Source: Candidatus Methanomethylicaceae archaeon
Lineage (GTDB): Archaea > Thermoproteota > Methanomethylicia > Methanomethylicales > Methanomethylicaceae
DNA: 50,421 bases
Assembly: GCA_026414165.1 (NCBI GenBank)
Contig: JAOAJN010000001.1
Span: 1-50,421 of the forward strand
Direction of reading: 5' to 3'
Shown: positions 2,141 through 38,021 of the stretch, in pieces
How the letters are laid out: every line of letters begins with the position of its first letter
How positions within the stretch are numbered: position 1 is the stretch's first letter
Translations under genes and position numbers: made by a program
Notes under the pieces: model-generated
The model's input: the letters and a program-made list of their open reading frames with translations, nothing else
Databases searched by the model: none
Told to the model about the DNA's origin: nothing

Positions 2141-2211
2141 TTTCGCGCCTGTTTAAAAGAGGCGCCTTTTTTTGGTCAAGCTTTTTTGGCGCCCGCAAAA
2201 AAGGTTGATGG

Positions 2212-2286
2212 CGGGCCCGCTGGGATTCGAACCCAGGACCTGCGGCTCCGAAGGCCGCCGCCATGATCCAGCTAGGCCACGGGCCC
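2212..2286 (-). tRNA. tRNA-Arg (anticodon TCG)
   Basis: Cloverleaf read on the minus strand: acceptor GGGCCCG/CGGGCCC, anticodon stem GCGGC/GCCGC with loop CTTCGGA (anticodon TCG, reading CGA), T arm CTGGG-TTCGAAT-CCCAG. CCA is not encoded. There is no intron. Its 3' end faces the integrase, so this gene is the likely attachment site of the left-hand element. Confidence 0.93.
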
Positions 2287-12552: not shown

Positions 12553-13787
12553 CAAATATACCTCCTCGGATCGGTTATCTGCCCATTAATGGCAGAAGCT
12601 GCAACCGTTTGAGGTGATGCCAAATATACTGACGAAGACCTTGCTCCCATTCTCCCGATAAAGTTCCTATTAGATGTAGACACACACACCTCATTATCTC
12701 CCAACACTCCCATATGCACGCCCAAGCAAGGACCACATCCAGTAACTCCTATTATTGCTCCCGCCTCTAGGAATATGTCTATGATCCCCTCTTTCTGAGC
12801 CTTAATGTATGTAGATTTGGAAGCAGGTATCACTATAAGCCTTGTATCCCTATGCACTCTCTTTCCTCTTAGTATCTTAGCAGCTTCAAAGAGATCCTCG
12901 TATCTACCGTTTGTACATGAGCCTAAAAATGCTTGATCTATTGGTTGACCTTCAACCTCAGATACCGATTTAACATTCGAAACACTGCCAGGACACGCAA
13001 CTTTTGGATCCAAAGATGACGCATCTAAAGTTATCGAATCCACTGCAGCATCAGTCCTAAAGATTTCACCATCTCGACCTAGAAACTCAATTGTCTTCTC
13101 GTCTGCCTCTATAAAGCCTGTCTTAGCTCCCATCTCCACCGCCATGTTCGACATGGTCATTCTGGATGATTGCGACATCGATCTCACAGTTTCTCCAGCG
13201 AATTCTAGCGCTTTATATGTGGCTCCATCCGTTCCAACAATTCTCACAATCTCTAGGATTAGATCCTTTGAAGAAACTCCCTTACTTAGCCGTCCGTCAC
13301 ATTTTATGTATAAAGTCTCTGGGACCTTGAGCCAAGTCTTGCCAGTTGCAAGGATATATGCCAGATCTGTCGCTCCCATCCCAGTTGAGAATAATCCGAA
13401 TGCTCCAAGTGTGCAGCTATGCGAATCTGCTCCGACTACAATCATGCCTGGGGCCACATAACCTTTTTCAGGTATCACTTGGTGGCAGATCCCCTCCCCC
13501 AGATCATGAAATTTTGAGATCCCTTGCTCTCTTGCAAATCTCCTCACTTTAGCTTGTAGTGTTGCAGCTTGGTCACTGTAAGGTGGAACCGAATGATCAA
13601 AAACTATACCTACTCTGTTGGGATCGAATATGCGCTTGACACCCATTTCGTTGAGTGCATCGATTATCAGGGGACCTGTTCCGTCATGAAAATATGCGAA
13701 GTCTACTGATACTTCAACAAAATCTCCTGCTTTAACTCGATGTCCTACCGATTTTGAGATTATTTTCTCCACTGCAGTACTACCCAA
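12552..13787 (-). CDS. aksD: Homoaconitase large subunit (AksD)
   Basis: A 411-residue LeuC/aconitase-family large subunit that carries the 4Fe-4S cluster. The cluster Cys residues lie in [13 protein letters not shown] (about 290) and [13 protein letters not shown] (about 350-362), and [20 protein letters not shown] is the usual active-site region. Length matches archaeal homoaconitase/isopropylmalate isomerase. Large subunits do not separate the two activities, so the assignment rests on the YLRS loop of the adjacent small subunit and on the aksA/mmp11 neighbourhood. The start is TTG at 13787, chosen because GAGGT lies 8-9 bases upstream. It is the first gene of the aksD-aksE-ThDP-mmp11-FAD run. 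Confidence 0.87.
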
Positions 13788-13820
13788 TTTGGCGACCTCA
13801 AACCATTCAAGTCTAGAGGA

Positions 13821-13834
13821 ATATTTTTATTTGT
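13821..13834 (-). promoter_or_regulatory. TATA-box promoter of the aksDE-ThDP operon
   Basis: The minus strand reads AAATAAAAATATTCC across this site. It lies about 40 bases upstream of the TTG start of aksD, leaving a leader of roughly 10 bases. The remaining divergent spacer to 14035 shows no gene. Confidence 0.45.
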
Positions 13835-14035
13835 CGCCATACCGGAGGCTCTGTCCAGCTATTAGTATTAATTTAGCGCATCAAGTATATCGATATGATC
13901 AACTTCAAAACACCTCTTGAATCGAATTATTAAATTATTTACATCGACATTCATGTAAACTTTCAATAAGGCGCTTCATTTTCTACCTATATTCATTTTA
14001 ATAGCTTCAATTAAGAGAATAAGTGGGAGATCTCT

Positions 14036-14650
14036 TTGAAGATCGGGGAAACCTTCCAACCAGACCCAAAGATGAAGGCCCTTTACTTCACATACCTCGC
14101 TTTAATTCTTGCCCCTCTATTTGTATTGGGTTTTGGCATTTTTTTATATCTCTTGCTCATAAGTGAGAGAACTGTTGCCACAATTTTTGCAATATTTTAC
14201 ATCCTCCCACTTATAGTTATAACGATCTTTGTTAGTTATTGGATTCCAAAATATTATAATTCAATCAAGTACCTTTTGACTGAAAATGAGGTCAGGGTAG
14301 AGAGGGGGGTGTGGTGGAAGATGCGCCACGCGGTCCCGTTCTCTAGAATAATGAGTGTTGACACAGTTCAGGGACCATTATCAAGACATTTTGGAATTGG
14401 GACTGTGGATATATATACTGCAGGTTATACTGGACGGGCTGGCGGGGGTAGTGGACCGAGTGTCAGAAGAGCTGAGGCATCTATAATGTTCGTACCTGAC
14501 TTCTTAGAGTTGAGGGAGGAGATCTTAAATATTGTAAAAGGGCGCCCCTTGTTTGGCGTTCCCGGTGTCCATTCTGATGTTTTGGGTCAGCAGATGTTGG
14601 AAGAGCTAAAAGAAATCCGGAAATTGTTGAGCTCAAAGCCAGCCTATTAA
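14036..14650 (+). CDS. Membrane protein with bacterial-type PH domain (bPH2/DUF304)
   Basis: A 204-residue protein with two adjacent hydrophobic helices (about 17-45 and 48-72) followed by a YdbT/DUF304-type PH domain. Typical segments are YLLTENEVRVERGVWW, VPFSRIMSVDTVQGPLSRHF and GIGTVDIYTAGYTG. The C-terminal 40 residues form a charged helix. It is anchored in the cytoplasmic membrane; the function of the family is not known. The start is TTG 14036, preceded by GGGAGAT. It is the only plus-strand gene inside the CoB region and splits it into two minus-strand units. Confidence 0.75.
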   Translation: MKIGETFQPDPKMKALYFTYLALILAPLFVLGFGIFLYLLLISERTVATIFAIFYILPLIVITIFVSYWIPKYYNSIKYLLTENEVRVERGVWWKMRHAVPFSRIMSVDTVQGPLSRHFGIGTVDIYTAGYTGRAGGGSGPSVRRAEASIMFVPDFLELREEILNIVKGRPLFGVPGVHSDVLGQQMLEELKEIRKLLSSKPAY

Positions 14651-14807
14651 GCCTGCGAAAACACAAACAGCAAAATTCTGAAAATCTTTTGACAGAAATC
14701 GATCATTAATTCCAATTATCATCTGTTTTCCTAAAAACTAAATTGGGTGAACACAAATCTGATTACCTCTTTTTAATCGTTGATTCAACCAATAAGCCGC
14801 TTAAATT

Positions 14808-15662
14808 TTAATTCGCCTTTCCAATTTTAATTTTAAATGACAGTGCGCTAGCAAAAACCAAAGGCAAAAAATAACTTCCCTTTGCCCTTGAAGTGTCTAT
14901 ATATATCTTTGGCAGCGCGGAAGCATAAGCCCCAAAACTATCAATGTTTGCAACTAAAACCAATGATCTGAATATTATGTTCCCTATTATTCCATCAGGC
15001 ACCAACAATATAGATACACCTGATTTTATTGCTCTTTCAATCTCTATGCCGAAGTTCTCAACCTCCAATCCGATCTCTCTGATTTTTTGCGTTAATAAAA
15101 TCGAAAATGAAAGTAGTTGATCCACTTTGGGGCTACGTCCAACATCCTCAAGTCTTCCTCCAGATATTATACCGACTCTATATTGCATACCCAAAAGCTC
15201 TGCCAAATCTTTTCCTTTTACAGCAAAAGTCAAGAGATCTTCGATTGTATCGCCCTCATCTATACCAACGGGCGCAAGCATAATAGGTCTTCCTTCTATT
15301 TCCATTAATGTTATGCGATAAAGGTTGTTACAATTAAAGGCTACGCGAAGACTCGAAAGAATGGCACCTGCACTTAAATTTCCCCTAACAGCCGCATCGA
15401 CTATCCCCTCTTTGAGCATATTTACTATGGCATGTTCAGGACGATCCACAATCACTATTGGGATCTCCTCCACAATCTCTGAAGGTCGCGAATCACGAAC
15501 CGAAACTAATACTGGGTCTGCATACCCCTCTCTCTTAACAAATAAGGCCGAATTCATTACCCTCTCAGAGGATGGTATATCTGGGTTTAGACCTATTGCA
15601 ACTTTCGCCCTATTGGCCTTTGCTAGCGAATAGATGTTAGGTCGATTTTTGTCCTTAATCAT
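14808..15662 (-). CDS. mtxX: MtxX / methanogenesis marker protein 4
   Basis: A 284-residue protein of the MtxX family (methanogenesis marker 4), distantly related to phosphate acetyl/butyryltransferases. Recognisable parts are VAIGLNPDIPS (about 17-27), DAAVRGNLSAGAILSSL (about 88-104), LAPVGIDEGDT, VGIISGGRLEDVGRSPKVDQ (about 173-192) and the C-terminal LVPDGIIGNIIFRSLVL. MtxX was named from a methyltransferase-linked locus in Methanosarcina, but its reaction is not established. The ATG start overlaps the 3' end of aksA by 8 bases, so the two are coupled. Given the fold, an acyl-phosphate or acyl-CoA transfer in CoB assembly is conceivable. A decayed second copy is present at about 33620-33945. 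Confidence 0.82.
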   Translation of the reverse strand: MIKDKNRPNIYSLAKANRAKVAIGLNPDIPSSERVMNSALFVKREGYADPVLVSVRDSRPSEIVEEIPIVIVDRPEHAIVNMLKEGIVDAAVRGNLSAGAILSSLRVAFNCNNLYRITLMEIEGRPIMLAPVGIDEGDTIEDLLTFAVKGKDLAELLGMQYRVGIISGGRLEDVGRSPKVDQLLSFSILLTQKIREIGLEVENFGIEIERAIKSGVSILLVPDGIIGNIIFRSLVLVANIDSFGAYASALPKIYIDTSRAKGSYFLPLVFASALSFKIKIGKAN

Positions 15663-16845
15663 TCTTTAATCTCTCCGAAAGAACTCGTTTCGCAAAATTT
15701 ATGAGCCCCCCATTGTCGATTAGCTCTGACCCTATGGGCAAAGTCTTCAAGCGCTTAACTATCTCTGCCAACTCTTCTTCTGTTAGCCGCATTCCGCATG
15801 CTGCCAATTTCTCTCTTACACTCTCTGTTCCTGAATGCCTTCCGAAGACCAGTTTGCGTTCCTGTCCAACGAGCTGGGGATCATATGCCTCATAAGTAAA
15901 TGGATGTTTCATTACCGCAGCTACATGTATTCCTGATTCATGCCTGAATGCATTCTCTCCCACAACTGCCTTGTTAACAGGTATGGGTATTCCTGAAAAT
16001 TTAGATACCATCGTTGAGAGATCGTGCAAAAGCTCTGTCCTTAGCTCGAGGTCTACACCATAAAGTGCATAGAGTGCCATTACGACTTCTTCTAACGCAG
16101 CGTTACCACATCGCTCTCCGATACCATTCACAGAAACCGAAATTGCGTCTATGCCTGCCTCATAAGCTGCTAGTGAGTTTGCAACTGCAAGACCAAAATC
16201 ATCATGACAATGAACGGAGAGCTCTACATCAAATAATTTTCTGATGGATTGTACAAGATATGCCATTCCCTTAGGTCTTATACATCCTGTCGTGTCTGCG
16301 ATTCCTAACCTATCTGCACCTCTTTCTTTAACAGCTGTATAAAGAGTTATCAATGAGTTTAAGGAGGTTCTGGTAGCATCCTCTGCTGATAATTGTACAA
16401 AGAGCCCATGATCTTTGGCATACTCTACCGATGCGGATGCTTGGTTAATGGCTGTGGTCAAATCCATTTTTAACTTGTACTTTAAATGGAGATCTGAGAC
16501 CGCCAAAAAAATTATAACACCGTCCACATCTGCCCTTATGGCCGCATCAATGTCTTTTTGTTTAGAACGACATAAGCAAAGTATGTCTGCATTAAGCCTC
16601 TCTGAAGCAACGGCGCGAACCGCATCCTCATCATATGGAGAGATTACTGGAAAACCTGCTTCTATTGCATGTACCCCGACCTCATCTAACTTCCTAGCAA
16701 TCTCAACTTTCTGTTCTTTGGTGAATTTAACGCCCGGTGTCTGCTCCCCATCCCTTAAGGTTGTATCGTATATCTTTACTTTCCTGTTCTCCTGATGTAT
16801 AAAATTATAGGGACTTGTAAAGTACCTCAAGGTAGACACTTTCAC
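15655..16845 (-). CDS. aksA: Homocitrate synthase family enzyme (AksA)
   Basis: A 396-residue LeuA/NifV/AksA-family acyltransferase that condenses acetyl-CoA with 2-oxoglutarate and longer 2-oxodicarboxylates on the way to 2-oxosuberate and CoB. Motifs are YDTTLRDGEQTPGVKF (about 25-40), VELSVHCHDDFGLAVANS with the metal-binding His, and SVNGIGERCGNAALEEV. The C-terminal part has GENAFRHESGIHV and LVFGRHSGTESV. It ends without the 100-residue regulatory domain of leucine-type LeuA, which favours AksA or NifV. The citramalate synthase CimA is excluded on length. Start GTG 16845. Adjacency to mtxX and homoaconitase supports AksA. Confidence 0.87.
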   Translation of the reverse strand: MKVSTLRYFTSPYNFIHQENRKVKIYDTTLRDGEQTPGVKFTKEQKVEIARKLDEVGVHAIEAGFPVISPYDEDAVRAVASERLNADILCLCRSKQKDIDAAIRADVDGVIIFLAVSDLHLKYKLKMDLTTAINQASASVEYAKDHGLFVQLSAEDATRTSLNSLITLYTAVKERGADRLGIADTTGCIRPKGMAYLVQSIRKLFDVELSVHCHDDFGLAVANSLAAYEAGIDAISVSVNGIGERCGNAALEEVVMALYALYGVDLELRTELLHDLSTMVSKFSGIPIPVNKAVVGENAFRHESGIHVAAVMKHPFTYEAYDPQLVGQERKLVFGRHSGTESVREKLAACGMRLTEEELAEIVKRLKTLPIGSELIDNGGLINFAKRVLSERLKND

Positions 16846-27590: not shown

Positions 27591-27721
27591 TGCGGGGGGA
27601 GGGATTTGAACCCTCGAAGGCCTACGCCACAGGATACCCTATCCACCCAAGCCTATGGATCTTAAGTTTGGCACGCCTTTATGGGCGTCCTGCCCCGTTG
27701 TCCTGACTTGGGAACCCCCGC
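27591..27721 (-). tRNA. tRNA-Leu (anticodon TAA) with probably two introns
   Basis: On the minus strand: acceptor GCGGGGG/CCCCCGC, D arm CCC..GGG, T arm GAGGG-TTCAAAT-CCCTC, and a long variable arm typical of Leu. The anticodon stem CAGGA/TCCTG is interrupted. The loop CTTAAG|A (anticodon TAA) is flanked by an insert of about 21 nt before it and about 25 nt after it. Removing both leaves an 85-nt class II tRNA. Exact splice points are my best fit. CCA is not encoded. Confidence 0.82.
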
Positions 27722-27867
27722 CCTAAGGATAACTAAAAAGTAGGGTGTTATTTAGATTTATTTGTGATCCATCCGCGCCCCATTAATCACTTATTTACAA
27801 CTGCCTATAATTCCAAAAACCGTATAACAAAAAGGTTTAATTCTAGATCGGATTCCTGTCCAATTGG

Positions 27868-27942
27868 GGGCCCGTGGCGCAGACTGGATAGCGCGTCGGC
27901 CTTCTAAGTCGATGGTCGAGGGTTCAAATCCCTCCGGGCCCG
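27868..27942 (+). tRNA. tRNA-Arg (anticodon TCT), left border of the nitrogen island
   Basis: Acceptor GGGCCCG/CGGGCCC, anticodon stem TCGGC/GTCGA (imperfect) with loop CTTCTAA (TCT), T arm GAGGG-TTCAAAT-CCCTC, discriminator G and encoded CCA at 27943-27945. A decayed integrase follows it, and a decayed second copy lies at 34060-34135. Confidence 0.92.
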
Positions 27943-27989
27943 CCATCAAAACTTCTTTGTCCGAGCTAAAGAAGCCTTACTAAGAAAGG

Positions 27990-28395
27990 CGCTCTCTTCA
28001 ACAGCCACGAAAGGGCATTTTACCGCCTGGGTCAACTAGTGCTTTACAAGTTCTGCAGGGTGGACCTACACTTCAAGCCATCATCAATAAAGAGCAAGTG
28101 TGTATACATCTCGAGGATGCTGAGGGAGGTCGGCTCTGATCCGACCGTAGAGGAGCTTAAGGGGTTTCTTGGTCTCCTTCGAGAACCTCTTGTCTTATAA
28201 TAAATGCGTTAAAGCCCTCAAGCTTTAATTCAGGGACTTCCTGAGGGACTTGAAGTATAAGGAAGTTCAGGCTCTGCAGGGTTGATTATGGGATCATGAG
28301 GCTCTACTCCAAGAAGGAGCTCCAGGAATTCTTATGCTAGCTGGGCACAGAAATAGAGCCCTCTTCCTGACATACGCAACTTCTGGGAGAAAGCT
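27990..28395 (+). pseudogene. Decayed tyrosine integrase
   Basis: Broken by several stops and frameshifts, but fragments in order match the intact integrase at 1309-2076. They are KFCRVDL near 28047, FRDFL near 28230, RLYSKKELQEF near 28302-28335 (identical to the intact protein) and RALFLTYATSGRK near 28355-28395, where it stops before the later catalytic residues. It starts just after the 3' end of tRNA-Arg(TCT), the arrangement expected for an element integrated there. Confidence 0.8.
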
Positions 28396-28396
28396 T

Positions 28397-28650
28397 CCGA
28401 TCCTTCGGCGATCTTCAGCAATACCGACAAATGGTCGAGATCCAGCACAACATGTTCGCCGCTTTGTAGCATCTCCTAGTAGATCTTTAGATCTTTAGGC
28501 GATCTACGTCTCACTTTTCAGTTTTCTGAATTCATAATAGAGGTAGAGTGCCTTCCTTATAAAATTACTTTGATTCTCGCCGCAGGAGGTCCGTTCTTGT
28601 AATATCCTTTCGAACTCTGGGCTGAGCGAAATGCTCGTGCGTTTGGACAC
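28397..28650 (-). pseudogene. Decayed ribbon-helix-helix regulator
   Basis: From GTG 28650 the minus strand encodes an RHH-type N-terminus (SKRTSISLSPEFERIL, then QSNFIRKALYLYYEF) ending at a stop at 28504. In another frame, after a second stop, the sequence continues with EMLQSGEHVVLDLDHL to about 28397, where it is fused to the integrase remnant. It could also be read as a 48-residue stand-alone protein. The fused continuation favours a pseudogene. Confidence 0.6.
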
Positions 28651-28741
28651 ATACAAAAAGGGGCGGTAGATAAATATTTTATTACATTTTCATAAAAAAA
28701 TATTAAATTTTATTACTAACTCCAACTTTTTAATAAATAAT

Positions 28742-28754: not shown

Positions 28755-28795
28755 CATCGGACTATTGATGTTTTGTATAAAAAGAGGAATTGAAT

Positions 28796-30124
28796 ATGAA
28801 CATTGGGTATGCAGAATCAGCAATATTCTACTCGAACGTTTATACCACAGTGGTTTCGGCGACCTATGGGATAGAGAACGCCATAGACACGACATGGATA
28901 CTGATTGCTGCCTTTCTGGTATTCTTCATGAATCTCGGATTCGCAATGCTGGAGAGTGGGATGCAGAGGGCCAAAAACACTAGCAACATATGCATGAAGA
29001 ACCTCGTGACCCCTGCGATCGGAGGTTTGGCATTCTTCATTGTCGGGTTCAGTTTGGCATTCGGGTCGGATATATTCGGGTTCCTAGGGAACCCAATCGA
29101 GTTGGCAATGCTTGGAAGGCTTGGGGCGCTTGACATATGGCCGAACACAAACGTCACTTCATATGCCTACTTCCTTTTCCAGGTTATGTTCGCGGCAACA
29201 GCGGCTACAATAGTTTCGGGTGCGGTTGGCGAGAGGATAAAGTTCATTGGGTATGTGCTCTTCACCGCGATAATACTGACCCTTGTGTACCCATTGGTGG
29301 CTCATTGGGTGTGGGGCGGAGGTTGGCTCGCGAGTATTGGGATGGTCGACTTTGCGGGATCTGCAGTAGTCCACCTCACTGGAGGTGCGGCCGCACTTGC
29401 TGGTGCTATTGTGCTAGGACCCAGGATCGGCAAGTACGCTGACGGTAAAATTAACCTAATACCAGGGCACAACATATCACTTTCAACAATCGGAGCGATG
29501 GTGCTCTGGTTCGGGTGGTTTGGTTTCAATCCAGGAAGCACTGCAGCTGCAACCATCCCGAGTATTGCGACAATAGCAATAACTACCAACATCGCGGCAG
29601 CTGCGGGGGCCTTAGGGGCAATGGTGACTGCATGGATCCACATAGGAAAGCCCGATGTTGGTATGACCATAAACGGGCTCCTTGCTGGTCTTGTAGCAAT
29701 AACTGCAGGATGTGCTAGCGTTAGCCCAGGAACGGCGATGGCAATAGGCAGTATTGCTGGGATCCTTGTCGTATTCTCAGTCGAATTCATCGATAAGGTC
29801 CTGAGGGTCGACGATCCGGTGGGCGCGATATCTGTCCATGGCGTCGGCGGAGCTTTTGGGGCGCTTGCGGTCGGCATCTTCGCTGAAAGTTCATTCTCTG
29901 GCGGTGTGAGCGGGCTTTTGTTTGGCGGCCGGACTTCACAGCTGGCGATCCAATTGGTGGGAGTCGGTTCGATATTTGCATTCGTGTTTGCCACTTCCTA
30001 TCTGGTATTCAAGGCGATTGACTATACAATAGGTCTGAGGGTCAGCGAGGAAGAGGAGATTATCGGTCTTGACATCGCTGAGCACGGCATGAGCGCATAC
30101 CCAGACTTCGAGGTGCCATCGTGA
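28796..30124 (+). CDS. amt: Ammonium transporter Amt
   Basis: An Amt/Rh-family channel of about 442 residues with roughly 11 transmembrane helices. Signature stretches are FAMLESGMQRAKNTSNICMKN, ADFAGS-type pore segments (VDFAGSAVVHLTGG) and FGWFGFNPGST with the family's conserved pore region, plus the later His in GAISVHGVGGAFGALAVG. It conducts ammonium/ammonia into the cell as a trimer. ATG 28796 is preferred over TTG 28790 because AAAGAGG lies 8 bases upstream. It is followed after 11 bases by glnK, the PII protein that blocks Amt when nitrogen is plentiful. The G+C-rich third codon positions differ visibly from the surrounding genes. Confidence 0.95.
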   Translation: MNIGYAESAIFYSNVYTTVVSATYGIENAIDTTWILIAAFLVFFMNLGFAMLESGMQRAKNTSNICMKNLVTPAIGGLAFFIVGFSLAFGSDIFGFLGNPIELAMLGRLGALDIWPNTNVTSYAYFLFQVMFAATAATIVSGAVGERIKFIGYVLFTAIILTLVYPLVAHWVWGGGWLASIGMVDFAGSAVVHLTGGAAALAGAIVLGPRIGKYADGKINLIPGHNISLSTIGAMVLWFGWFGFNPGSTAAATIPSIATIAITTNIAAAAGALGAMVTAWIHIGKPDVGMTINGLLAGLVAITAGCASVSPGTAMAIGSIAGILVVFSVEFIDKVLRVDDPVGAISVHGVGGAFGALAVGIFAESSFSGGVSGLLFGGRTSQLAIQLVGVGSIFAFVFATSYLVFKAIDYTIGLRVSEEEEIIGLDIAEHGMSAYPDFEVPS

Positions 30125-30135
30125 GGCGATAAGGA

Positions 30136-30588
30136 ATGAAACTGGTAATAGCATACATAAAGCCTGAAAAACTCGAGGACGTCAAGAGGGAGCTGGACTC
30201 CAGAGAAGTGTTCAGGATGAGCGTAACCAAGGCAAAGGGGTGCGGCGAGACAAAGGGGTACGTCGAAAGCTATCGGGGCGTTAAGAAGGACGTTTACCTC
30301 CTGCCTAAACTAAGGCTTGAGATTGCTGTAAACGACGACTTCGTGGACACGGTAGTTGAAGGGATAATTAAATCAGCTAGAACTGGAAAGATCGGAGACG
30401 GCAAGATCTTCATCTTGCCCCTAGAGGAATGCATTAGGATCAGGACAGGCGAACGTGGACCTGATGCAGTGGGAGGATGGAGCAGGTATTCTAGCAAACA
30501 TGCCCCAAACCAAGAGGGCCAGAGGGCGGACGAGCAAAAGAAAAACAATGTAGACAAAGACTTAGCGTCTTTCAAACAAGAGGTATGA
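30136..30588 (+). CDS. glnK: PII nitrogen regulatory protein GlnK
   Basis: A 150-residue PII protein. Residues 1-112 are the standard trimeric PII fold, with the T loop at about 37-55 (YVESYRGVKKDVYLLPKL) and the ATP-binding stretch TGKIGDGKIFILPLEE. The T loop has Lys-Lys where the uridylylated Tyr51 of enterobacterial PII would be, so control is probably by ATP/ADP/2-oxoglutarate alone, as in archaeal GlnK proteins. There is a charged C-terminal extension of about 38 residues (from SKHAPNQEGQ) not usual for the family. The position directly after amt fits a direct Amt regulator. Confidence 0.94.
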   Translation: MKLVIAYIKPEKLEDVKRELDSREVFRMSVTKAKGCGETKGYVESYRGVKKDVYLLPKLRLEIAVNDDFVDTVVEGIIKSARTGKIGDGKIFILPLEECIRIRTGERGPDAVGGWSRYSSKHAPNQEGQRADEQKKNNVDKDLASFKQEV

Positions 30589-30591
30589 GTG

Positions 30592-31503
30592 ATGTGCGGA
30601 ATAGCAGGCGTATTGCTTAACGGAAAGGGAGAGATAGGTCTCTTCCTCTCAGTGATGCTGGGAGGATTGCAGCACAGGGGGCTCGATTCGGCAGGTGTTG
30701 CCCTTTACAGGAGCGAAGAGATGCCGGGCGACGAGTTCATGATAAGAGTATTCACAAGAGATGTTATAGGCGCACTTAGCAAGATCTCGGCTGCAATAGC
30801 TAGCGCGGGCGGGGATATTAGGAACATAAAGCTCAATTCTATAAAGGGCTACAGCTTCGACCTCTACACAGTCAGGGCGCATGAGAAAGACCTGCCCCAG
30901 ATGGTCAAGAACATTAATGCCACCGAGCTCTCGAAGGTGCTGAGCATCGGCAGAAAGATGGATATAATAAAGGATACAGTCTCCGTGGAGGAGCTCGATA
31001 GGAACTTTAAGGTACGTGACTTTATAGGTAGCCATGGCATTGGACATGTAAGATTCTCGACTGAGAGCCGCGTCGACCTTTTCCACGCCCACCCGTTCCA
31101 GTCCTTCGACCACATAGACGTGGCCTTGGTTCACAACGGTCAGATCACGAATTACTGGAAGGCGAGGGAAAGGCTCGAGCAGAAGGGGGTCAAATTCCAA
31201 ACTGAAAACGACTCGGAATTAATTGTGCACTACATAACTGACAGGCTCAAGGACGGCGAGGCGCTCGATGAAGCACTGAAGGCATCCGTAGAGGATCTTG
31301 ACGGACCTTTCTCCTACGTATTCTCGACAGAGTGTGAACTCGGAATGGTAAGAGACAAGCTCGGACTGAGACCAATGGTCATCTTAGAAGGCGAAGAGAT
31401 TAGGGCAGTCGCCTCGGAGGAGAACGCCTTGCGTCTTTTGAATAAGAAAGGCGTCATCAGGAACGTTAAACCAGGTGAGGTAATTTGCTGGAAAACAGTA
31501 TAA
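30592..31503 (+). CDS. Glutamate synthase, glutaminase (class II amidotransferase) subunit
   Basis: About 303 residues of a GATase type II domain. The start is ATG 30592, which puts Cys directly after Met (MCGIAGVLL), the nucleophile exposed after Met removal. GTG 30589 would place it one residue further in. Further motifs are GLQHRGLDSAG, GHVRFSTESR (Arg of the substrate pocket) and LVHNGQITNYW. It releases ammonia from glutamine for the synthase encoded next. The 3' end overlaps that gene by 19 bases. In archaeal-type glutamate synthase the glutaminase is a separate polypeptide, as here. Confidence 0.88.
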   Translation: MCGIAGVLLNGKGEIGLFLSVMLGGLQHRGLDSAGVALYRSEEMPGDEFMIRVFTRDVIGALSKISAAIASAGGDIRNIKLNSIKGYSFDLYTVRAHEKDLPQMVKNINATELSKVLSIGRKMDIIKDTVSVEELDRNFKVRDFIGSHGIGHVRFSTESRVDLFHAHPFQSFDHIDVALVHNGQITNYWKARERLEQKGVKFQTENDSELIVHYITDRLKDGEALDEALKASVEDLDGPFSYVFSTECELGMVRDKLGLRPMVILEGEEIRAVASEENALRLLNKKGVIRNVKPGEVICWKTV

Positions 31504-33599
31504 AGAGAATAGATGCAAGTGGAATGAGTGTCAGGGAGCTCAACTTGGCTCTCAAATTGGCTACTGATGGAGGGCGCATTTTAATAGAAAATCCGAAGGG
31601 AATGCACCATATTGCAGCGGGACTCGTAACAAAATGCACAGTGGAGATCGAAGGGTCTGTCGGTTACTTTGCAGGGACGATGATCGATGGACCGTTCATC
31701 AAGGTCAGGGGCAATGCCGGCTGGTTCTTGGGAGACAATATGACTGCTGGCGAGATAGTTGTCGAAGGGCACTCCGGTAACGGAACTGGTCAAGGGCTAT
31801 ACGGCGGAAGGTTGGTTGTCAGGGGGGATTGCGGGGACAGGGTCGGTGCACTGATGAAGAATGGTTTAGTGGTTGTAGGAGGAGACTCAGGAATAATGAC
31901 TGGACTTTACATGATGGGGGGAGAGATCATAGTATTGGGAAGGCTCGGCGAGAGTGCGGGTGAATCGATGGTAGGCGGGAAGATATTTTTCTCGGGACCA
32001 GAGCCGACACTCGGTAAAAACGCAAATGTCGAAGAAGTGACCGATACAGAGCTCGAACATGTCGAAAGGTTGCTAAGGGACTATGGACTTGCGACCCCAA
32101 AAATGAGAAAGATTGTCCCAGAAAACCCGAGGTACTTCCGAAGATCTGAGGGGAACATTTGGAACATCAGGAGGGAGAGGAACAGATACAAAGTGGAGAT
32201 TGACCATGGAGTATGCGAGGTCTGCGGGGCATGCGCACGCGTATGCCCGCAACAAGTATTCAAGGAAGTCAAGCAGGGATATATGGCTCCTATAAACGAC
32301 TTCGAGTGCGTCGGGTGTGAGACCTGCGTGGAGCACTGCAGACAGAGGGCGGTGAGAGTCTATCCTGTCCATGAGATTGGAAGATCGACCTGGACGAGAC
32401 GGGAAATCGACGAAATCCAGATCAAGGCGGCAATAGGCAGAGCATTAGTGAGGGGCATGGGGGCATGGAATAGGTTCCCTCATTTCGACGATCTGGTATT
32501 TCTCTGTGCCCAGAACTCTAGACCACCAATTGACCACTACAGGGAGCCATGTGAAACAGAGATAGTCCTGGGCAAAGGACGAGCCGAGAGACCGCTGAGG
32601 TTGGCCGCGCCAATTCTGGTGGGGGCCATGTCGTTCGGTGCTATGAGTAAAGAGGCTAAGCTCGCAGTAGCAAAGGCAACATCAAAGATCGGAATCCCTA
32701 CGAACACAGGAGAGGGGGGAATGCTACCGGAAGAGAGAGCGCTTGCTTCCATACTCATCGCACAATATGCCTCAGGGAGGTTCGGTGTCTCGGCTGAGTA
32801 TCTTCGCTCTGCTGATGCGGTTGAGATCAAGATCGGACAAGGCGCAAAAGGTGGTCAAGGAGGGCTACTCATGGGCGAGAAGGTTACAGAAGAGGTTGCT
32901 AAGGTCAGGGGCTTGCCGCCAGGATCGGACGCGATCAGCCCTGCGAGGCACCTGGACATAGTAGGTCCGGAGGACTTGAAGATGAAGATTGAACAGCTCA
33001 GGGAAATCACGGATTGGAAAGTCCCAATAGTTGTAAAGTATTCTGCAGGAAGGGTCAGGGATGACGTGAAGATAGCGGTCAAGGCTGGAGCGGACATCAT
33101 CGTAATCGATGGCAAACAGGGCGGTACTGGAGCGGCTCCGGACATTGTTATCGAGCATGCCGGTTTGCCCACTCTTCCTGCACTAGTCGAGGCAGAGAGA
33201 AGCCTAAAGGAGCTCGGAGTTAAGGACAAGGTGAGCCTGGTGATATCTGGCGGAATAAGGAATGGGGCTGATATTGCGAAGGCCCTTGCTTTGGGAGCGG
33301 ACGCCGTAGCAATCTCAACAGGGGTGCTAATTGCGATGGGCTGTAGAACCTGCGGGTTGTGCTCCACAGGAAAGTGTTCGAGGGGGATCACGACCCAGGA
33401 TCCAGCGCTCAGGAAGCGCCTCAAAGTAGAGGAGATGGCAGCCAGGGTTGAAAATTACCTAAGGGCAATAATAGAAGAGCTCAAGATGTTCACCCAGCTC
33501 TCAGGCAAGACTTCAGTCAGGAGCTTGGATAAGGATGACCTCAGAGCGCTAACTACAGATGCGGCTGCTATAACTGGTGTAAAACTGGTAGGGAACTGA
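31485..33599 (+). CDS. Glutamate synthase, GXGXG-ferredoxin-FMN synthase fusion
   Basis: A 704-residue protein combining three parts. Residues 1-205 are a GXGXG beta-helix (repeats such as GNAGWFLGDNMTAGEIVVEG). About 225-300 form a two-cluster ferredoxin domain (CEVCGACARVCPQ and CVGCETCVEHC). About 320-680 are the FMN-binding TIM barrel of glutamate synthase (GAMSFGAMSKEAKLAVAKA, NTGEGG, KIGQGAKGGQGG, QGGTGAAPDI), with Cys residues of a 3Fe-4S site in CRTCGLCSTGKC. It makes glutamate from 2-oxoglutarate and ammonia using reduced ferredoxin-like electrons. The GXGXG domain precedes the FMN domain, the reverse of bacterial GltB. TTG 31485 is the likely start, inside the glutaminase gene. Confidence 0.9.
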   Translation: MLENSIKRIDASGMSVRELNLALKLATDGGRILIENPKGMHHIAAGLVTKCTVEIEGSVGYFAGTMIDGPFIKVRGNAGWFLGDNMTAGEIVVEGHSGNGTGQGLYGGRLVVRGDCGDRVGALMKNGLVVVGGDSGIMTGLYMMGGEIIVLGRLGESAGESMVGGKIFFSGPEPTLGKNANVEEVTDTELEHVERLLRDYGLATPKMRKIVPENPRYFRRSEGNIWNIRRERNRYKVEIDHGVCEVCGACARVCPQQVFKEVKQGYMAPINDFECVGCETCVEHCRQRAVRVYPVHEIGRSTWTRREIDEIQIKAAIGRALVRGMGAWNRFPHFDDLVFLCAQNSRPPIDHYREPCETEIVLGKGRAERPLRLAAPILVGAMSFGAMSKEAKLAVAKATSKIGIPTNTGEGGMLPEERALASILIAQYASGRFGVSAEYLRSADAVEIKIGQGAKGGQGGLLMGEKVTEEVAKVRGLPPGSDAISPARHLDIVGPEDLKMKIEQLREITDWKVPIVVKYSAGRVRDDVKIAVKAGADIIVIDGKQGGTGAAPDIVIEHAGLPTLPALVEAERSLKELGVKDKVSLVISGGIRNGADIAKALALGADAVAISTGVLIAMGCRTCGLCSTGKCSRGITTQDPALRKRLKVEEMAARVENYLRAIIEELKMFTQLSGKTSVRSLDKDDLRALTTDAAAITGVKLVGN

Positions 33600-33619: not shown

Positions 33620-33945
33620 CCTTTTTATTGATTTTCTAGCTCAAGGTGCTTGCCGAGATCAATGGCAACAGGCAACTCGTTTTAGATCGAGGTATCTAAA
33701 GGTCTTCGGCAGGACTCGCTCAATCACCATAGCTTTGGATCTTGCCCACGAAAACTACCTGAAAGAGGTTCCCGAATATGCCTTCACATGCGAGTATCAA
33801 AGTAAAGCCCTCATCGACCGTCCACTCTATATCCACCCCAAAGTTTTCTGCCTCGATACCTTTCGATTTCAGTTTGTTGACTGTCGCATGTCTTTTCCAA
33901 GTATTCTGTAGACGCACAATGTCTTTTCTTATCCTCGCGGCGTCC
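33620..33945 (-). pseudogene. Decayed second copy of mtxX
   Basis: The minus strand from 33945 contains GIEAENFGVDIEWTVDEG and LACEGIFGNLFQVVFVGKI, aligning with GLEVENFGIEIERAIKSG and LVPDGIIGNIIFRSLVLVA of intact mtxX at 14808-15662. After a stop at 33720 the same frame continues with ASPAEDL and SCLLPLISASTLS, matching the C-terminal YFLPLVFASALS with further stops. The N-terminal two-thirds is missing. The divergence from the intact copy suggests an old duplicate or a foreign gene brought in with the island. Confidence 0.75.
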
Positions 33946-33949
33946 TGCG

Positions 33950-33968
33950 CGTTGTCCTGACTTGGGAA
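33950..33968 (-). repeat. 19-bp fragment of the tRNA-Leu gene
   Basis: The 19 bases at 33950-33968 are identical to 27696-27714, the D-arm region of tRNA-Leu(TAA), in the same orientation relative to the nearby tRNA-Arg copy. With the decayed tRNA-Arg at 34060 it indicates that the whole tRNA-Leu/tRNA-Arg segment was duplicated. Confidence 0.7.
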
Positions 33969-34059
33969 TCCAGCCTTTCAAAAGATTAGGAGCGGACCAG
34001 TATTAAGTTTTTGGCTAATATGGAAATATTTATTGGAATAGCGCTTTTTAATCACGTCA

Positions 34060-34135
34060 GGGTCCATGGCGCAGACTGGATAGCGCTTTGGTCTTCTAAG
34101 TCGATGGTCGGGGTTTTAAATCCCCGTTTCGTCGA
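34060..34135 (+). pseudogene. Decayed tRNA-Arg (TCT) copy, right border of the island
   Basis: The core (ATGGCGCAGACTGGATAGCGC and CTTCTAAGTCGATGGTCG) is identical to tRNA-Arg at 27868, including the TCT anticodon. The acceptor strands GGGTCCA and TTTCGTC no longer pair, and the T arm has lost its TTC and one base pair. The product is probably not functional. Confidence 0.85.
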
Positions 34136-34211
34136 TTTAAAAAAATAGAAAATCTATCTAACATATCCCACAAATTTTTAGCCATGTTCGTTTGACATAT
34201 AATCAATACTG

Positions 34212-35729
34212 GTGTATCTCTTGAACGCCGAAAAAGTTCGGTTAGCACGATCCGCTGCCTATCTGACTGCACAAACTGTGGTGTCAATTATATCTGGCAT
34301 AGTCTATTTTGCATTTGCCGCTAGGCTTCTCCCTACAATCGCCGATCTCGGAAAGGTATCTGCCATAACAATGTTTTCAGGTTTGATTCTAACTGTACTA
34401 ATATTCGCATTGCCTTCCGCAGTCTCTAAGTATTACTCTGAACTTCTGGGGAAAGGACTCTCCTCTGACGCAAGTGGTGTTGCTTATATTGGGTTTAAAA
34501 TTGGAACCCTCCTAGCCATAATCGGTAGCGGCTTTTGTCTATTATTCGCTCCTTATATATCATTGATATTTTTTGGAAGCGAAGCAGAGGCATTCTTTTT
34601 CAGACTGCTTTCTTTGGATATCTTGGTCGTATTTATCTCACAATTCTCTTCTTCAGTGCTTTATGGCTCTCAAAAATTCAAGGAACTTTCCATAAGTTCC
34701 ATAATATCCAATTCGGTCAAGACTGCCGCAACGATATCTTTTCTATTACTAGGTTTTGGAATATCTGGGATAATTTTTGGATGGATAATTGCCGACTTTC
34801 TATATCTTTGCCTATCTTTATTATTTTGCCGTGAGACTATGCGAAAAATGCATGGATCATTTCCGTTATTTACCTTGCTGAAATATTCTATGCCTATTTA
34901 TGGATCAAACATATTGGGCTATCTTCAATCAACAATAGACCGTTACATTGTTCTTGGGTTGGTCGGGGCCCAAATCCTTGGCGTCTACTCTCCAGCAACT
35001 ACTGCAGTTCTTTATGTATCTTCACTACCTGGATCCTTGGCATCTGCAATTTTTCCTCGTGCCTCAGGTCTTTTTGGCAAAGGTGATATGCATGGCATAA
35101 TGAGGACAACAAACGTTGCATCAAGATACTCTGCAATTATATATTCTCCCATGGCTTTTGGGCTCGCAGCCACGGCGCTTCCCACAATAGATCTTTTTGC
35201 AGGCTCAAGATATGTCGAGGGGTCACCAGCATTGACGATTATGGCTGCTGCGTCTGTAGTGTTGTCAATTCACCACGTCGTATGTACTTATATCGCATCC
35301 ATAGGCAAGACTTTTGTCTTCTTTGTTTCTCAACTAGCTGCAATAGTGGCATGTTCCTTTATATCCATCCTATTTGTCCCTCAATTCGGTGCGACAGGGG
35401 CTGCCATCGGCAGATGTGCCCTCATATTGGTAAACTTTCTAACAATGCTGCTATATGTAAAGTCAGAGATACGTGATCTTATAGATTGGCGATGCTTCTT
35501 CGCTTCACTCACTACCTCATTTATCATGTCGATATTTGTTTTCATTTTTGTATGGAGCTATTATTCAAAATATTTGCTTCCTGCCTACATTTTTGTTGGT
35601 GGATTTGTTTATGTAATAATGCTCAAGGCTTTAAAAATTATTAATAATGCTGATTTAGAATTATTAATTGCATTTGTCCCCCAGCGCCTGAAAGGCATCG
35701 CTTACCGCTTTGGTCGTTTCTTGACTTAA
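34212..35729 (+). CDS. Polysaccharide/oligosaccharide flippase (MATE/Wzx-like)
   Basis: A 505-residue integral membrane protein with about 13-14 hydrophobic helices over its whole length and short loops. The N-terminal ARSAAYLTAQTVVSIISGIVY and the helix pair around PIYGSNILGYLQSTIDRYIV are typical of the Wzx-like oligosaccharide flippases, which move lipid-linked glycans across the membrane. Start GTG 34212. It lies just outside the right border of the nitrogen island and upstream of a glycosyltransferase (36925). Together with the sugar-nucleotide genes it suggests surface-glycan export. The glycan is unknown. Confidence 0.85.
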   Translation: MYLLNAEKVRLARSAAYLTAQTVVSIISGIVYFAFAARLLPTIADLGKVSAITMFSGLILTVLIFALPSAVSKYYSELLGKGLSSDASGVAYIGFKIGTLLAIIGSGFCLLFAPYISLIFFGSEAEAFFFRLLSLDILVVFISQFSSSVLYGSQKFKELSISSIISNSVKTAATISFLLLGFGISGIIFGWIIADFLYLCLSLLFCRETMRKMHGSFPLFTLLKYSMPIYGSNILGYLQSTIDRYIVLGLVGAQILGVYSPATTAVLYVSSLPGSLASAIFPRASGLFGKGDMHGIMRTTNVASRYSAIIYSPMAFGLAATALPTIDLFAGSRYVEGSPALTIMAAASVVLSIHHVVCTYIASIGKTFVFFVSQLAAIVACSFISILFVPQFGATGAAIGRCALILVNFLTMLLYVKSEIRDLIDWRCFFASLTTSFIMSIFVFIFVWSYYSKYLLPAYIFVGGFVYVIMLKALKIINNADLELLIAFVPQRLKGIAYRFGRFLT

Positions 35730-35746
35730 TTGCTATTATTCTTTTT

Positions 35747-36844
35747 TTAATTTTGCAAATGTGGAATTTTGCGCCCTTCACTAAAAATGCTGATTGAAAT
35801 CAAACTATTTTTTAGGACTTCTTTTATTCTCTCTCTAAGACTATCAAACTCTCCTTCATAGAATGGCTTAGATTCGAAGACCTGCTCGAATATTATTCTC
35901 CCTGCCTCGTCGTCGCTTTTGACCTTAAAAATTATCGACCCTAGAGCAACCTCTCCTTGCTGAAGCAACCCATCAGCATCTCCATCGGTAATACCAATTA
36001 TGGGAATCCCGAATCTACTGAATATGTCTCCTACGATTGCAGTCGTATCATCTCCAACAGTAACAGCAGAACACACGCCCTCATCTAATAATTTTAAAAC
36101 ATCATACCCTGCATGCTCTACATAGGCTACCTTTTTACTGATCCCCGTCTTCAGGACAATACCTCTTTTATTCTTAACATTATGCCTCAATACCTTTATA
36201 GTATCTATTTTTACCTCGGATAACTCTATCCTTCCCAACTTCTCAACCCCATGCCTCTTGATCGTAGCCCCCTTTATATCCAAAATATTCCCATTTTCGC
36301 AGATCACTACCACATCTTTAGTCTCTGCCTTTCCTACTACTATCTTGTTTATTAGTATCCAATCTCCAGGCGCGACTGCCAAGATTCTCCTAAATTCCTT
36401 TCTGCCTTCTTTCCAAAAAGTAGTCCCAAAATCCTTACCTTCCTTGAACTCGAACCTCAAATCATCGGACAACACATGTGCAAATTCTCTTGCCCCTTCG
36501 CCCCAAAAAGCTATAGCTCTACTATTGGTTTCTACACCTACTACAGGCAAAGCTGTTCTTTTATAGATATACCAACTGTCTGCCATCATCCTTTCTACAT
36601 CGCTTGTATACATCACATTAACTACAACATCAAAATCAAACCGATTATTTTTGACCCAGTCGCTGAACTTTTCTTTAATAATTATTACTTCACTCTCAAG
36701 CTGAGCATCCATCATTGCAACTGCACCAATTGTGCCCCCCACCACGGCAACAAAATCCCCATATTTTTTTATTACAAAAAGCATTCTTTCTGCCCAACCC
36801 GTATCGAATACTCCTGACATGTGGAGCCGCAGGCAAATCTTCAT
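35747..36844 (-). CDS. DUF2117 (COG4022) protein of methanogens
   Basis: A 365-residue soluble protein that I match to DUF2117, a family without known function that I associate with methanogens. Recognisable segments are the N-terminal RLHMSGVFDTGWAERML, AVVGGTIGAVAMMDAQLE and the C-terminal VTVGDDTTAIVGDIFSRFG, IGITDGDADGLLQQGEVALG (about 290-310). The Asp-rich DGDADG loop could bind metal or phosphate. There is no signal peptide or membrane helix. No operon partner lies on its strand; it is convergent with the flippase gene. Confidence 0.75.
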   Translation of the reverse strand: MKICLRLHMSGVFDTGWAERMLFVIKKYGDFVAVVGGTIGAVAMMDAQLESEVIIIKEKFSDWVKNNRFDFDVVVNVMYTSDVERMMADSWYIYKRTALPVVGVETNSRAIAFWGEGAREFAHVLSDDLRFEFKEGKDFGTTFWKEGRKEFRRILAVAPGDWILINKIVVGKAETKDVVVICENGNILDIKGATIKRHGVEKLGRIELSEVKIDTIKVLRHNVKNKRGIVLKTGISKKVAYVEHAGYDVLKLLDEGVCSAVTVGDDTTAIVGDIFSRFGIPIIGITDGDADGLLQQGEVALGSIIFKVKSDDEAGRIIFEQVFESKPFYEGEFDSLRERIKEVLKNSLISISIFSEGRKIPHLQN

Positions 36845-36924
36845 GAAATCACCAGCAATTCTAAATATTTCTCAGTACAAACAAAGATAAAGAAATAAAC
36901 CAAGAGATATATGCTCTTTTATGT

Positions 36925-37635
36925 GTGTCCCCCTTGGTAAAACTGTCAGTAATAATCCCCACATATAATGAGGAGAAAGGTATAGAGAAAACTCTCCGGT
37001 CTATTTCTTCGCAGACACTGCCAAGGAGTGATTACGAAATAATTGTGGTGGACGGCGGTAGTGTTGATAGGACTGTTGAGATCGCATCAAAGTATGCAGA
37101 CTTGATTCTCCAGCAGAAGAGCAAAGGTGTGGGTGGTGCCAGGAATGATGGTGTAGAAGTTGCTCGTGGCAGGGTTATCGTCCATACTGATGCCGACGTC
37201 ATAGTTCGGAGTGACTGGCTACACCAGATCCTCTCACATTTTTCTTCTGGCGTTGTAGCTGTATGCGGTCCGGACGAGCCCCTAGAACCAGATCCTAAAT
37301 ATCGAACCCTTTACTCTCTAATCAACTTGATTTCATTATTTGCATATAAACTGGGAATTGTTTGGACCAGAGGAACTAATACGGCAGTACTTAAAGATGC
37401 TTTTTTAAAAGTAGGCGGTTATACAGACTACCCCCTCTGTGATGACGGAGAGTTGGGCTTGAGACTGAAAAAGATCGGGAAAGTTGTCTACTCACCAAAA
37501 ATAAGTGTGAAGATGTCGGCTCGCAGGTTCAAAAAATATGGAATATTGCGGGTTATAAAAGACTGGATTAAGGGTGATTTGATGATCTTCATGGGCAAAA
37601 GAACATTTGGAAAATATCATAAAGAATCCTATTAA
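36925..37635 (+). CDS. Family 2 glycosyltransferase
   Basis: A 236-residue GT-A fold glycosyltransferase. LSVIIPTYNEEKGIEKTL is the N-terminal nucleotide-binding strand, EIIVVDGGSVDRTVEIA follows, and VIVHTDADVIVRSDWL carries the DxD metal motif. GGYTDYPLCDDGELGLRLKK supplies the ED-type catalytic Asp. No membrane helix is clear, so it is a cytosolic or peripheral enzyme that transfers a sugar from a nucleotide or dolichol-phosphate donor. Start GTG 36925. Acceptor and sugar are not known. Confidence 0.87.
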   Translation: MSPLVKLSVIIPTYNEEKGIEKTLRSISSQTLPRSDYEIIVVDGGSVDRTVEIASKYADLILQQKSKGVGGARNDGVEVARGRVIVHTDADVIVRSDWLHQILSHFSSGVVAVCGPDEPLEPDPKYRTLYSLINLISLFAYKLGIVWTRGTNTAVLKDAFLKVGGYTDYPLCDDGELGLRLKKIGKVVYSPKISVKMSARRFKKYGILRVIKDWIKGDLMIFMGKRTFGKYHKESY

Positions 37636-38021
37636 CACACTCTCCCCGCCACGCTCTTTTTTATAATAATAAAAAAGCGTTTCTCATAATAGAAATTTAA
37701 AATTTAAAAAATTATAAAATTAATAGTTAAAATGTTGATTACTTTTGTTTTTAGCATCTTTAGCGCACTAATATTATTAATTGACTATGGATTTGCACTA
37801 ATAATCGTCTATTTCTTGTACAAAAATAATTAAAAACGAATTGAAATAATGATATCTTGAGAGGTTCTTCGCACCTTCCAAAATAGTTCTCATAAATAAT
37901 ATTAATTTTAAGTGATAAATAATGATAAAATTAAAAATAAAAATTTCCTTATTATTAAGTAGGTGAAAATTAAAAAAAATCTTAAATACATCCTGTTTTC
38001 CAACCCGATTTGGGTGTTATA
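37636..38021. other. A+T-rich intergenic region with hairpin and doubtful small ORF
   Basis: An inverted repeat of the form CGCTCTTTTTT..AAAAAAGCG lies at about 37651-37679, just after the glycosyltransferase gene, and may act as a terminator. A 33-residue hydrophobic frame occupies 37732-37833. AATCTTAAATAC near 37978-37990 is a plausible TATA box for the symporter genes, giving a nearly leaderless mRNA at ATG 38022. Confidence 0.45.
37732..37833 (+). CDS. Possible 33-residue membrane peptide
   Basis: ATG 37732 to TAA 37833 encodes an almost wholly hydrophobic peptide (SALILLIDYGFALIIVYFL) ending in a charged tail. No ribosome-binding site is evident and the region is very A+T rich, so chance is a fair explanation. 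Confidence 0.2.
   Translation: MLITFVFSIFSALILLIDYGFALIIVYFLYKNN

Follow-up and report, generated by a model that had tools for sequence, protein, structure and literature searches.

Phages such as lambda can perform specialised transduction, in which an integrated element joins neighbouring chromosomal genes, which are then inserted at the cognate site of another cell in permuted order. In archaea, She et al. reportedly described, in 2001 and 2004, the capture of genes at tRNA genes by integrases. That archaeal elements integrate at tRNA genes is well established, and 30% identity over 60% of the protein has been used as the criterion for membership among classical integrases (PMC8371274). 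Furthermore, the integrated plasmid pM164 of Sulfolobus islandicus is described as mediating Hfr-like transfer of nearby chromosomal genes (PMC9899855). Under the names tried, no paper on Methanosuratincola integrases or Methanomethylicota mobile elements was found in the open literature searched, and no title on horizontal transfer of ammonium genes in Verstraetearchaeota was among the matches listed.

We analyzed a stretch of 50,421 nucleotides, referred to as the window, which comprises bases 1-50421 of contig C11 (211 kb) in a 1.19 Mb genome (42 contigs, 85.7% complete) of the Methanomethylicales, a lineage of methanogens. The window was compared with congeners (G001, G002, and G003; genus g1), with the genus that holds the Methanosuratincola records (g2) and with the genus of G005 (g3). 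G001 and G003 probably correspond to Candidatus Methanomethylicales MAG-3 (JACIVQ01) and Candidatus Methanomethylicota JZ-2_bin_200; G004 is likely Ca. Methanosuratincola subterraneus Ch88, G010 and G021 are likely Methanosuratincola MAGs, and G016 and G005 appear to be Candidatus Methanomethylicota JZ_65_OP_bin_38 and Ca. Methanomethylicus oleisabuli, respectively. We are highly confident that a horizontally acquired island of g2 origin occupies the window from 27946 to about 34135; an integrase remnant probably forms its left edge.

The case is one of the known archaeal gene capture by integrases at tRNA genes, with an unusually complete anatomy. As in the capture attributed to She et al., a tyrosine integrase sits at a tRNA gene, foreign DNA has been fixed beside it and the integrase has decayed; unlike there, the DNA here comprises a chromosomal operon of the donor together with the donor's tRNA and its flank, in permuted order, and points to both the donor and the recipient site. 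As in lambda-type specialised transduction, the gene order is permuted relative to the donor (all three spanning g2 contigs have the other order), but host genes and a tRNA have been kept with only part of the integrase, and the case is known here from genome sequence. It would also resemble pM164 in that an integrated archaeal element promotes the transfer of nearby chromosomal genes; that work concerns marker exchange and recombinant tracts among strains of one species, whereas here new genes were added at a tRNA across genera.

The island begins immediately after an intact tRNA-Arg(TCT) gene (27868-27945, plus strand), which ARAGORN calls and which comparison of loci marks as the insertion point. 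The flank upstream of this tRNA (27591-27867, plus strand) belongs to the window's own genus: 27591-27943 is 84.7% identical to G001 and 27745-27943 is 84.5% identical to G003, both contiguous with their tRNA. Positions 1-76 of the tRNA are identical to G001 and G003, and its encoded CCA end is absent from those two. In G003, the counterpart of 27745-27943 is contiguous with that of 34060-37854, and in G001 the counterpart of 27591-27943 is contiguous with that of 34060-35723. Because left flank and tRNA thus run straight into 34060 onward in both congeners, the window carries about 6.2 kb of extra DNA. The site is therefore empty in 2/2 congeners whose assemblies cover it; in G002 the locus was not found, and the two tRNA matches there reach only 78%. 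The recipient chromosome resumes at approximately 34136 (34136-37854, plus strand), with 80.5% identity to G003 and 78% to G001. Separately, an intron-containing tRNA-like gene was recognized by eye on the minus strand at 27591-27722; it is conserved upstream of tRNA-Arg(TCT) in relatives and is not called by ARAGORN.

At its far end the island carries a second copy of tRNA-Arg(TCT), here called tRNA' (34060-34124, plus strand), which is 87.7% identical to 27868-27932, has lost its acceptor end and is not called by ARAGORN. The island is thus bounded by direct tRNA repeats (27868-27945 and 34060-34124), of which the second, unlike an ordinary attR, includes the 5' half of the tRNA and an upstream flank. 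This flank, 127 bp long (33933-34059, plus strand), matches the flank of tRNA-Arg(TCT) in 4/4 g2 loci. From 33933 or 33939 to 34124, identity was 87% to G004, 86% to G010, 85% to G014, and 81% to G021 (all four compared), and the same flank compared with the loci of G001, G003, G005, G006, and G007 gave a match to the tRNA only or to a piece of 27-35 bp. tRNA' carries T4 and T30 as in G004, G010, G014, and G021, and also in G005; G006 and G007 share T4, which was found in all five other-genus loci families compared, and G001 and G003 have C at both positions. Base 44 of tRNA' is G, as in the recipient, although a simple crossover predicts the A of the donor; the crossover point can thus be placed only approximately.

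Between the two tRNA copies, sequences of different origin follow one another. The integrase remnant (27946-28394, plus strand), recognized by alignment and placed by tree, comprises a leader (27946-28038) followed by roughly 115 N-terminal codons that are interrupted by stops and frameshifts. At 28394/28395 the integrase sequence meets a regulator gene of the donor genus, and homology to four g2 genomes ends at 28395 (G004), 28393 (G014), 28396 (G010), and 28392 (G021), which places the fusion point at 28393-28396. The regulator gene itself, RHH-like, truncated and frameshifted (28395-28656, minus strand), retains residues 1-46 and 54-89 of 175 by homology to g2 genomes. It is followed on the plus strand by four intact cargo genes: amt, an ammonium transporter (28790-30124; PF00909; 88% amino acid identity to G004); a glnB-like P-II protein gene (30136-30588; PF00543; 94% to G004 over 135 residues); the glutamine-amidotransferase subunit of a split glutamate synthase with an ACT domain (30589-31503; PF13537, PF01842; 87% to G004); and a 704-aa glutamate synthase subunit with GXGXG, Fer4, and Glu_synthase domains (31485-33599; PF01645, PF01493; 91% to G004). 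Next comes, by homology, a truncated foreign copy of the gene that adjoins gltB in g2, g277 (33642-33881, minus strand; residues 193-276 of 277), and then the g2-like flank and tRNA'.

This order is permuted relative to g2. In all three g2 contigs that span the region (G004, G014, and G021), the order along the tRNA strand is leuC, regulator, amt-glnB-gltGAT-gltB, g277, leuA, further genes, flank, and tRNA-Arg(TCT), with most of the amt-glt cluster lost in G021; integrase sequence follows the tRNA in two of the three (G014 and G021), and none was found there in G004. In the window, the order is tRNA, integrase fused to regulator, amt-glt, flank, and tRNA'. A linear donor fragment would not yield such an order, whereas a circular or tandemly duplicated form of the donor DNA would, if opened at the tRNA; an intermediate of this kind is thus implied. 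The join between 33881 and 33933 skips 9.8 kb relative to G004 and 7.4 kb relative to G014, among them leuA and further genes also present in the recipient. In none of the sampled g2 genomes does the cluster directly adjoin the tRNA. The recipient also has a native leuC-like gene, 277-aa gene (14841-15635), and leuA-like gene, in this order at 12555-16830 and uninterrupted by amt-glt; it is between leuC and the 277-aa gene that the cluster sits in g2. The names leuC and leuA are readings, not results of a family search. The island has thus brought in a second, truncated copy of a resident gene.

We consider it probable that the island arose from a permuted donor circle inserted at the matching tRNA-Arg(TCT). 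In a Methanosuratincola-like (g2) donor, an element with a TCT-type integrase would have resided in tRNA-Arg(TCT), downstream of leuC, the regulator, amt-glnB-gltGAT-gltB, g277, leuA, further genes, the flank, and the tRNA. A circle would have formed by a join between mid-integrase and mid-regulator sequence, much as when a prophage excises aberrantly, and would have carried the truncated regulator, amt-glnB-glt, the DNA up to the flank, the tRNA, and the truncated integrase. With the circle opened at the tRNA, the fusion of integrase and regulator would be its closing point. On entering a cell of the window's genus, the circle would have inserted at the matching tRNA-Arg(TCT), by either site-specific or homologous recombination, yielding the recipient tRNA, the fused integrase and regulator, amt-glt, the donor flank, tRNA', and the recipient chromosome. 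About 7-10 kb between g277 and the flank, much of it with native counterparts, would have been deleted before or after arrival. Integrase, regulator, and tRNA' have decayed, while all four cargo genes (amt, glnB, and both glutamate synthase genes) have remained unbroken at low dN/dS. No circle was seen; this weighs against the model, as do the separation of cluster and tRNA in the sampled g2 genomes, base 44 of tRNA', the occurrence of T4 and T30 outside g2, and, as described below, the mosaic signal of the remnant and the protein tree.

The initial annotation had proposed that the broken integrase is kin to the intact enzyme next to tRNA-Arg(TCG), with which it shares the block RLYSKKELQEF, and this kinship was borne out. 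The intact integrase (1309-2076, minus strand; PF00589, 41.3 bits against a cut-off of 27.1; PF16795, 40.2 bits against 27) adjoins tRNA-Arg(TCG) (2209-2286, minus strand; ARAGORN), and its locus is 65% identical in DNA over 559 bp to the remnant locus of tRNA, non-coding leader of about 90 bp, and about 115 codons. With the tRNA left out, the best segment reached 86.0 bits, whereas none of 500 dinucleotide shuffles exceeded 32.8; the leader alone reached 31.9 bits, a score attained by 0/500 shuffles, the highest of which gave 22.9. Because the non-coding leader and the roughly 115 codons both align and beat the shuffles, the likeness is not confined to common recombinase motifs. An integrase query against the own genome gave four matches at E<=10 in two places only, three of them pieces of the remnant. 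The catalytic domain of the remnant is incomplete: the sequence stops at about codon 115 (28394) and contains internal stops.

The second half of the claimed mirror image, a pair of RHH genes, stood only in that the gene beside the remnant is indeed broken. The 50-aa ORF at 28504-28656 (minus strand) corresponds to residues 1-46 of the 175-aa protein, residues 54-89 of which survive in another frame, and it gave no BLASTP match to the 71-aa ORF at 906-1121 even at E 100. It also lies on the strand opposite to its integrase, whereas 906-1121 is on the same strand as its own. The 175-aa protein is encoded divergently to amt in G014, and homologues adjoin amt in G004, G010, G016, and G005. A role of the ORF within the integrative element was rejected, the ORF belonging to this amt-linked protein, and so was a toxin-antitoxin pair with the next minus-strand ORF, which has no toxin-like match and is part of the single 175-aa protein in G014. 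Pfam profiles scored below their cut-offs for the 71-aa protein (RHH_1, 16.8 bits against 20.5) and for the 50-aa protein (only the ParD-antitoxin model, 13.7 bits against 46.2, E 0.047), and a Pfam search of the 175-aa protein returned no family; "RHH regulator" is thus a tentative reading from sequence and position.

We next consider how the two integrases relate to described enzymes and to each other. The intact ORF lies 132 bp from the end of its tRNA, with the att site outside the integrase gene, and the same holds in G021, where an unbroken integrase lies between the tRNA and a 47-nt tRNA repeat; in this they resemble the classical (pNOB8-like, non-partitioned) archaeal integrases, whose tRNA lies outside the integrase ORF. 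Identity to plasmid integrases of Sulfolobus, Saccharolobus, and Acidianus was 25.6-31.9% (13 of the best 15 of 16 records), the best being the integrase of the Sulfolobus sp. NOB8H2 plasmid NC_006493, which matches 66% of the query at 31.9%, and full-length matches reached only 25.6-27.0% among the best 15 of 16 records. Unlike pNOB8-like integrases, this enzyme is known here from sequence: relatives are encoded at 24 loci on genome contigs, most from Methanomethylicales and some from other archaea, and those above 40% identity occurred only in chromosomal assemblies of these groups. In the viral contigs searched, 13 and 22 stretches fit a pattern, and none was confirmed as an integrase relative; phage records gave four matches, to Sulfolobus virus integrases at 24.5-24.9%.

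A tree was built from 15 rows and 485 columns of DNA alignable with the remnant. In it, three sequences from tRNA-Arg(TCT), namely the remnant, the G021 integrase, and the broken copy in G014, formed a clade with support of 100/100. The window's intact integrase paired there with that of G018 (95/96), but the three rows from tRNA-Arg(TCG) (window, G018, and G001) were not resolved as one clade; another tree grouped them weakly (SH-aLRT 90.9, bootstrap 72). A clade of the remnant with the window's intact integrase was rejected (p-AU 6.9e-8), as was one of the remnant with all three TCG rows (p-AU 1.1e-4). Thus the two integrases of the window are related, but the intact enzyme is not the remnant's closest kin. 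The remnant nevertheless gave a mosaic signal: 37 sites support a grouping with G021, and 29 support one with all three TCG integrases. Its identity over columns 160-280 is 72-76% to G021 and 45-52% to the window's integrase, whereas over the last ~80 columns it is 82% to the window's integrase and 62% to G021. On this alignment, either the remnant or the G021 integrase appears to be a mosaic. The RLYSKKELQEF block falls in the TCG-like part of the remnant. The start of the catalytic part (28299-28394) is TCG-like and the N-terminal part is TCT-like; these patterns hint that target-binding parts may be swapped between integrases.

Of two readings in which the remnant would not have come with the cargo, the first invokes two steps: an element first entered the recipient's tRNA-Arg(TCT), and the donor's amt-glt, flank, and tRNA' later recombined at the tRNA and deleted most of that element. 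The family does have TCT-site integrases, and the TCG-like 3' end means that the remnant need not be the donor's. We consider this unlikely, as it needs two imports at one site and a deletion that ends exactly at the edge of the import, when a single permuted circle accounts for both the truncated integrase-regulator fusion and tRNA'. In the second, which we hold to be distinctly improbable, two related elements integrated independently in the two tRNA-Arg genes, and the remnant is an old decayed insertion unrelated to amt. It draws on the homology of the integrases, on the presence of integrase sequence beside tRNA-Arg(TCT) in G021 and G014, and on the remnant's 3' end being closest to the window's own integrase. 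Against it, an ordinary insertion ends in a repeat of the 3' part of the tRNA, such as the 47-nt repeat of G021, not in a 5' half preceded by 127 bp of g2-like flank; moreover, the remnant runs directly into DNA of the donor genus, and both scorable congeners lack the 6.2 kb in its entirety.

Elements related to one another do occupy the two tRNA-Arg genes in the family, as the initial annotation had supposed. G001 and G018 have kin of the intact integrase at tRNA-Arg(TCG); relatives of the remnant occur at tRNA-Arg(TCT) in G021 and G014. In G021, the tRNA (C123:24319-24394) and a 47-nt repeat of tRNA positions 32-78 (96%, at 3028-3074) lie about 21.3 kb apart, and the element encodes an Eco57I/N6-methylase-type protein, a second integrase-domain fragment, a phrog_1979-like protein (P-loop by eye), and further proteins with no Pfam match. 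The DNA adjoining the TCG integrase of G001 encodes homologues of seven genes of the G021 element at 31-86% identity, so the two integrase groups ride on related elements. What did not hold was the view of the remnant as merely an old copy that had used a second tRNA of its own chromosome: its clade is otherwise found in another genus, it is fused to that genus's DNA, and on the simplest view it came in together with about 6 kb of it. Among the 15 distinct tRNA-Arg(TCT) loci fetched in the family, some of them short, integrase sequence was near three (window, G014, and G021). An integrase at tRNA-Arg(TCG) is shared with G001, whereas none was found at the corresponding tRNA of G003; neither congener has the island. 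As to the far end of the window's TCG element, the window opens at the first base of its contig. Downstream of tRNA-Arg(TCG), the DNA of G003 (L107:10397-14120) gave no match in the window's genome (G000); no second copy of the TCG tRNA end was found for the G001 element in C10:1-8000.

Several further observations concern this integrase family. Relatives lie beside genes for tRNA Arg(TCG), Arg(TCT), Val, Glu, Gly, Ala (two anticodons), Thr, and Phe (loci L005-L013, L044, and L057). Within the G021 element a block occurs twice (L181, 14017-15794 and 18099-19876). Immediately beyond the element's 47-nt repeat, a further stretch that by eye resembles an integrase leader suggests an older tandem insertion. 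C-terminal integrase pieces with 80-84% identity lie downstream of tRNA genes at G014:C1:317703-317906 and G007:C6:31725-31904; the G007 piece starts about 30 bp past the tRNA, and in G014 two more decayed pieces intervene. In the window's own genome, an intron-containing tRNA-Arg-like gene was recognized by eye at a contig end (C37:25-150, L036), where ARAGORN calls none. The 24 bases after it resemble integrase leaders, and the contig stops there; a third tRNA-Arg may therefore be occupied.

The cargo is foreign to the genome that now carries it. DNA identity across the cluster is 82.1% between window and G004, 80.6% between window and G014, and 82.8% between G004 and G014, and identity to G016 is 73.3% for the window and 74.8% for G004. 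The cargo proteins are 88.0/85.6% (amt), 94.1/94.1% (P-II), 86.8/88.1% (amidotransferase), and 91.1/90.8% (synthase) identical to those of G004/G014; backbone proteins scored in the fetched regions are 51-77% identical to G004 (10/10) and 50-79% to any of three g2 genomes (11/11). The four cargo genes have GC3 values of 56.0, 57.0, 62.0, and 55.7%, compared with 39.9% on average in 27 background ORFs (range 34.0-48.2). In G004 and G014, GC3 of amt and gltB is 67-71%; the cargo values of 56-62% lie below this, as after some amelioration. In a tree of codon positions 1 and 2, the window grouped with G004, G014, G010, and G020, with the g2 genome G016 outside (support 99/100), and monophyly of g2 without the window was rejected (p-AU 0.017; 0.018 without G020). 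In the protein tree the inner forks of the window/g2 group were open, and the same monophyly was not rejected (p-AU 0.069). dN/dS relative to G004 was about 0.04-0.09 for the four cargo genes, values that are rough because dS is near 1. An ammonium transporter domain was found by Pfam in none of G001, G002, and G003 (8/22 family genomes and 14/14 controls were positive), and no glutamate synthase match at E<=1e-60 was found in the same three, absences that are provisional because these are draft assemblies (80-92% complete, the window's genome 85.7%). As a separate observation, G021 (L102:16160-17244) has lost amt and most of glt, and the C-terminal part of the 175-aa protein there abuts a broken piece of gltB; the cluster is thus being lost in one member of g2 and was gained in the window's genome.

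These data also bear on whether a Methanosuratincola fragment was misjoined at the tRNA-Arg repeat during assembly, which we regard as very unlikely. tRNA genes are repeats, the bin is fragmented (42 contigs), and the junctions are known from the assembly. However, tRNA' is decayed over its 65 nt and runs straight into own-genus DNA, the longest exact run between tRNA' and the good tRNA copy is 20 nt, and the cargo GC3 is below that of g2. Vertical inheritance is hardly credible. On that reading the ancestor of the window's genus had amt-glt at the tRNA, and the sampled congeners have lost it. The cluster genes are also present in g3 (G005 and G015), so that their presence in the family may be old, but similarity to g2 is much higher for the cargo than for the backbone, equal divergence was tested and not found, and GC3, the codon tree, and the g2-like flank before tRNA' disagree with it.

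The vehicle of the transfer can be proposed only tentatively. An uncharacterised, possibly virus-like integrative element of the Methanomethylicales may have served in specialised transduction between genera, its aberrant excision at tRNA-Arg producing a circle with the whole ammonium operon and the donor tRNA that would have been delivered to the cognate tRNA. Integrase scars are usually read as dead phages or plasmids, whereas this one still records the movement of a metabolic operon between two uncultured archaeal genera, with donor site, recipient site, fusion point, and gene order all legible. The full second tRNA with a donor flank at the island's far end is a signature that can be searched for, and a permuted circle carrying a donor tRNA offers a testable model for the route by which such archaea would acquire nitrogen-assimilation genes. 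For the recipient, the possible benefit would be genes for ammonium uptake and assimilation that were not found in its sampled congeners.
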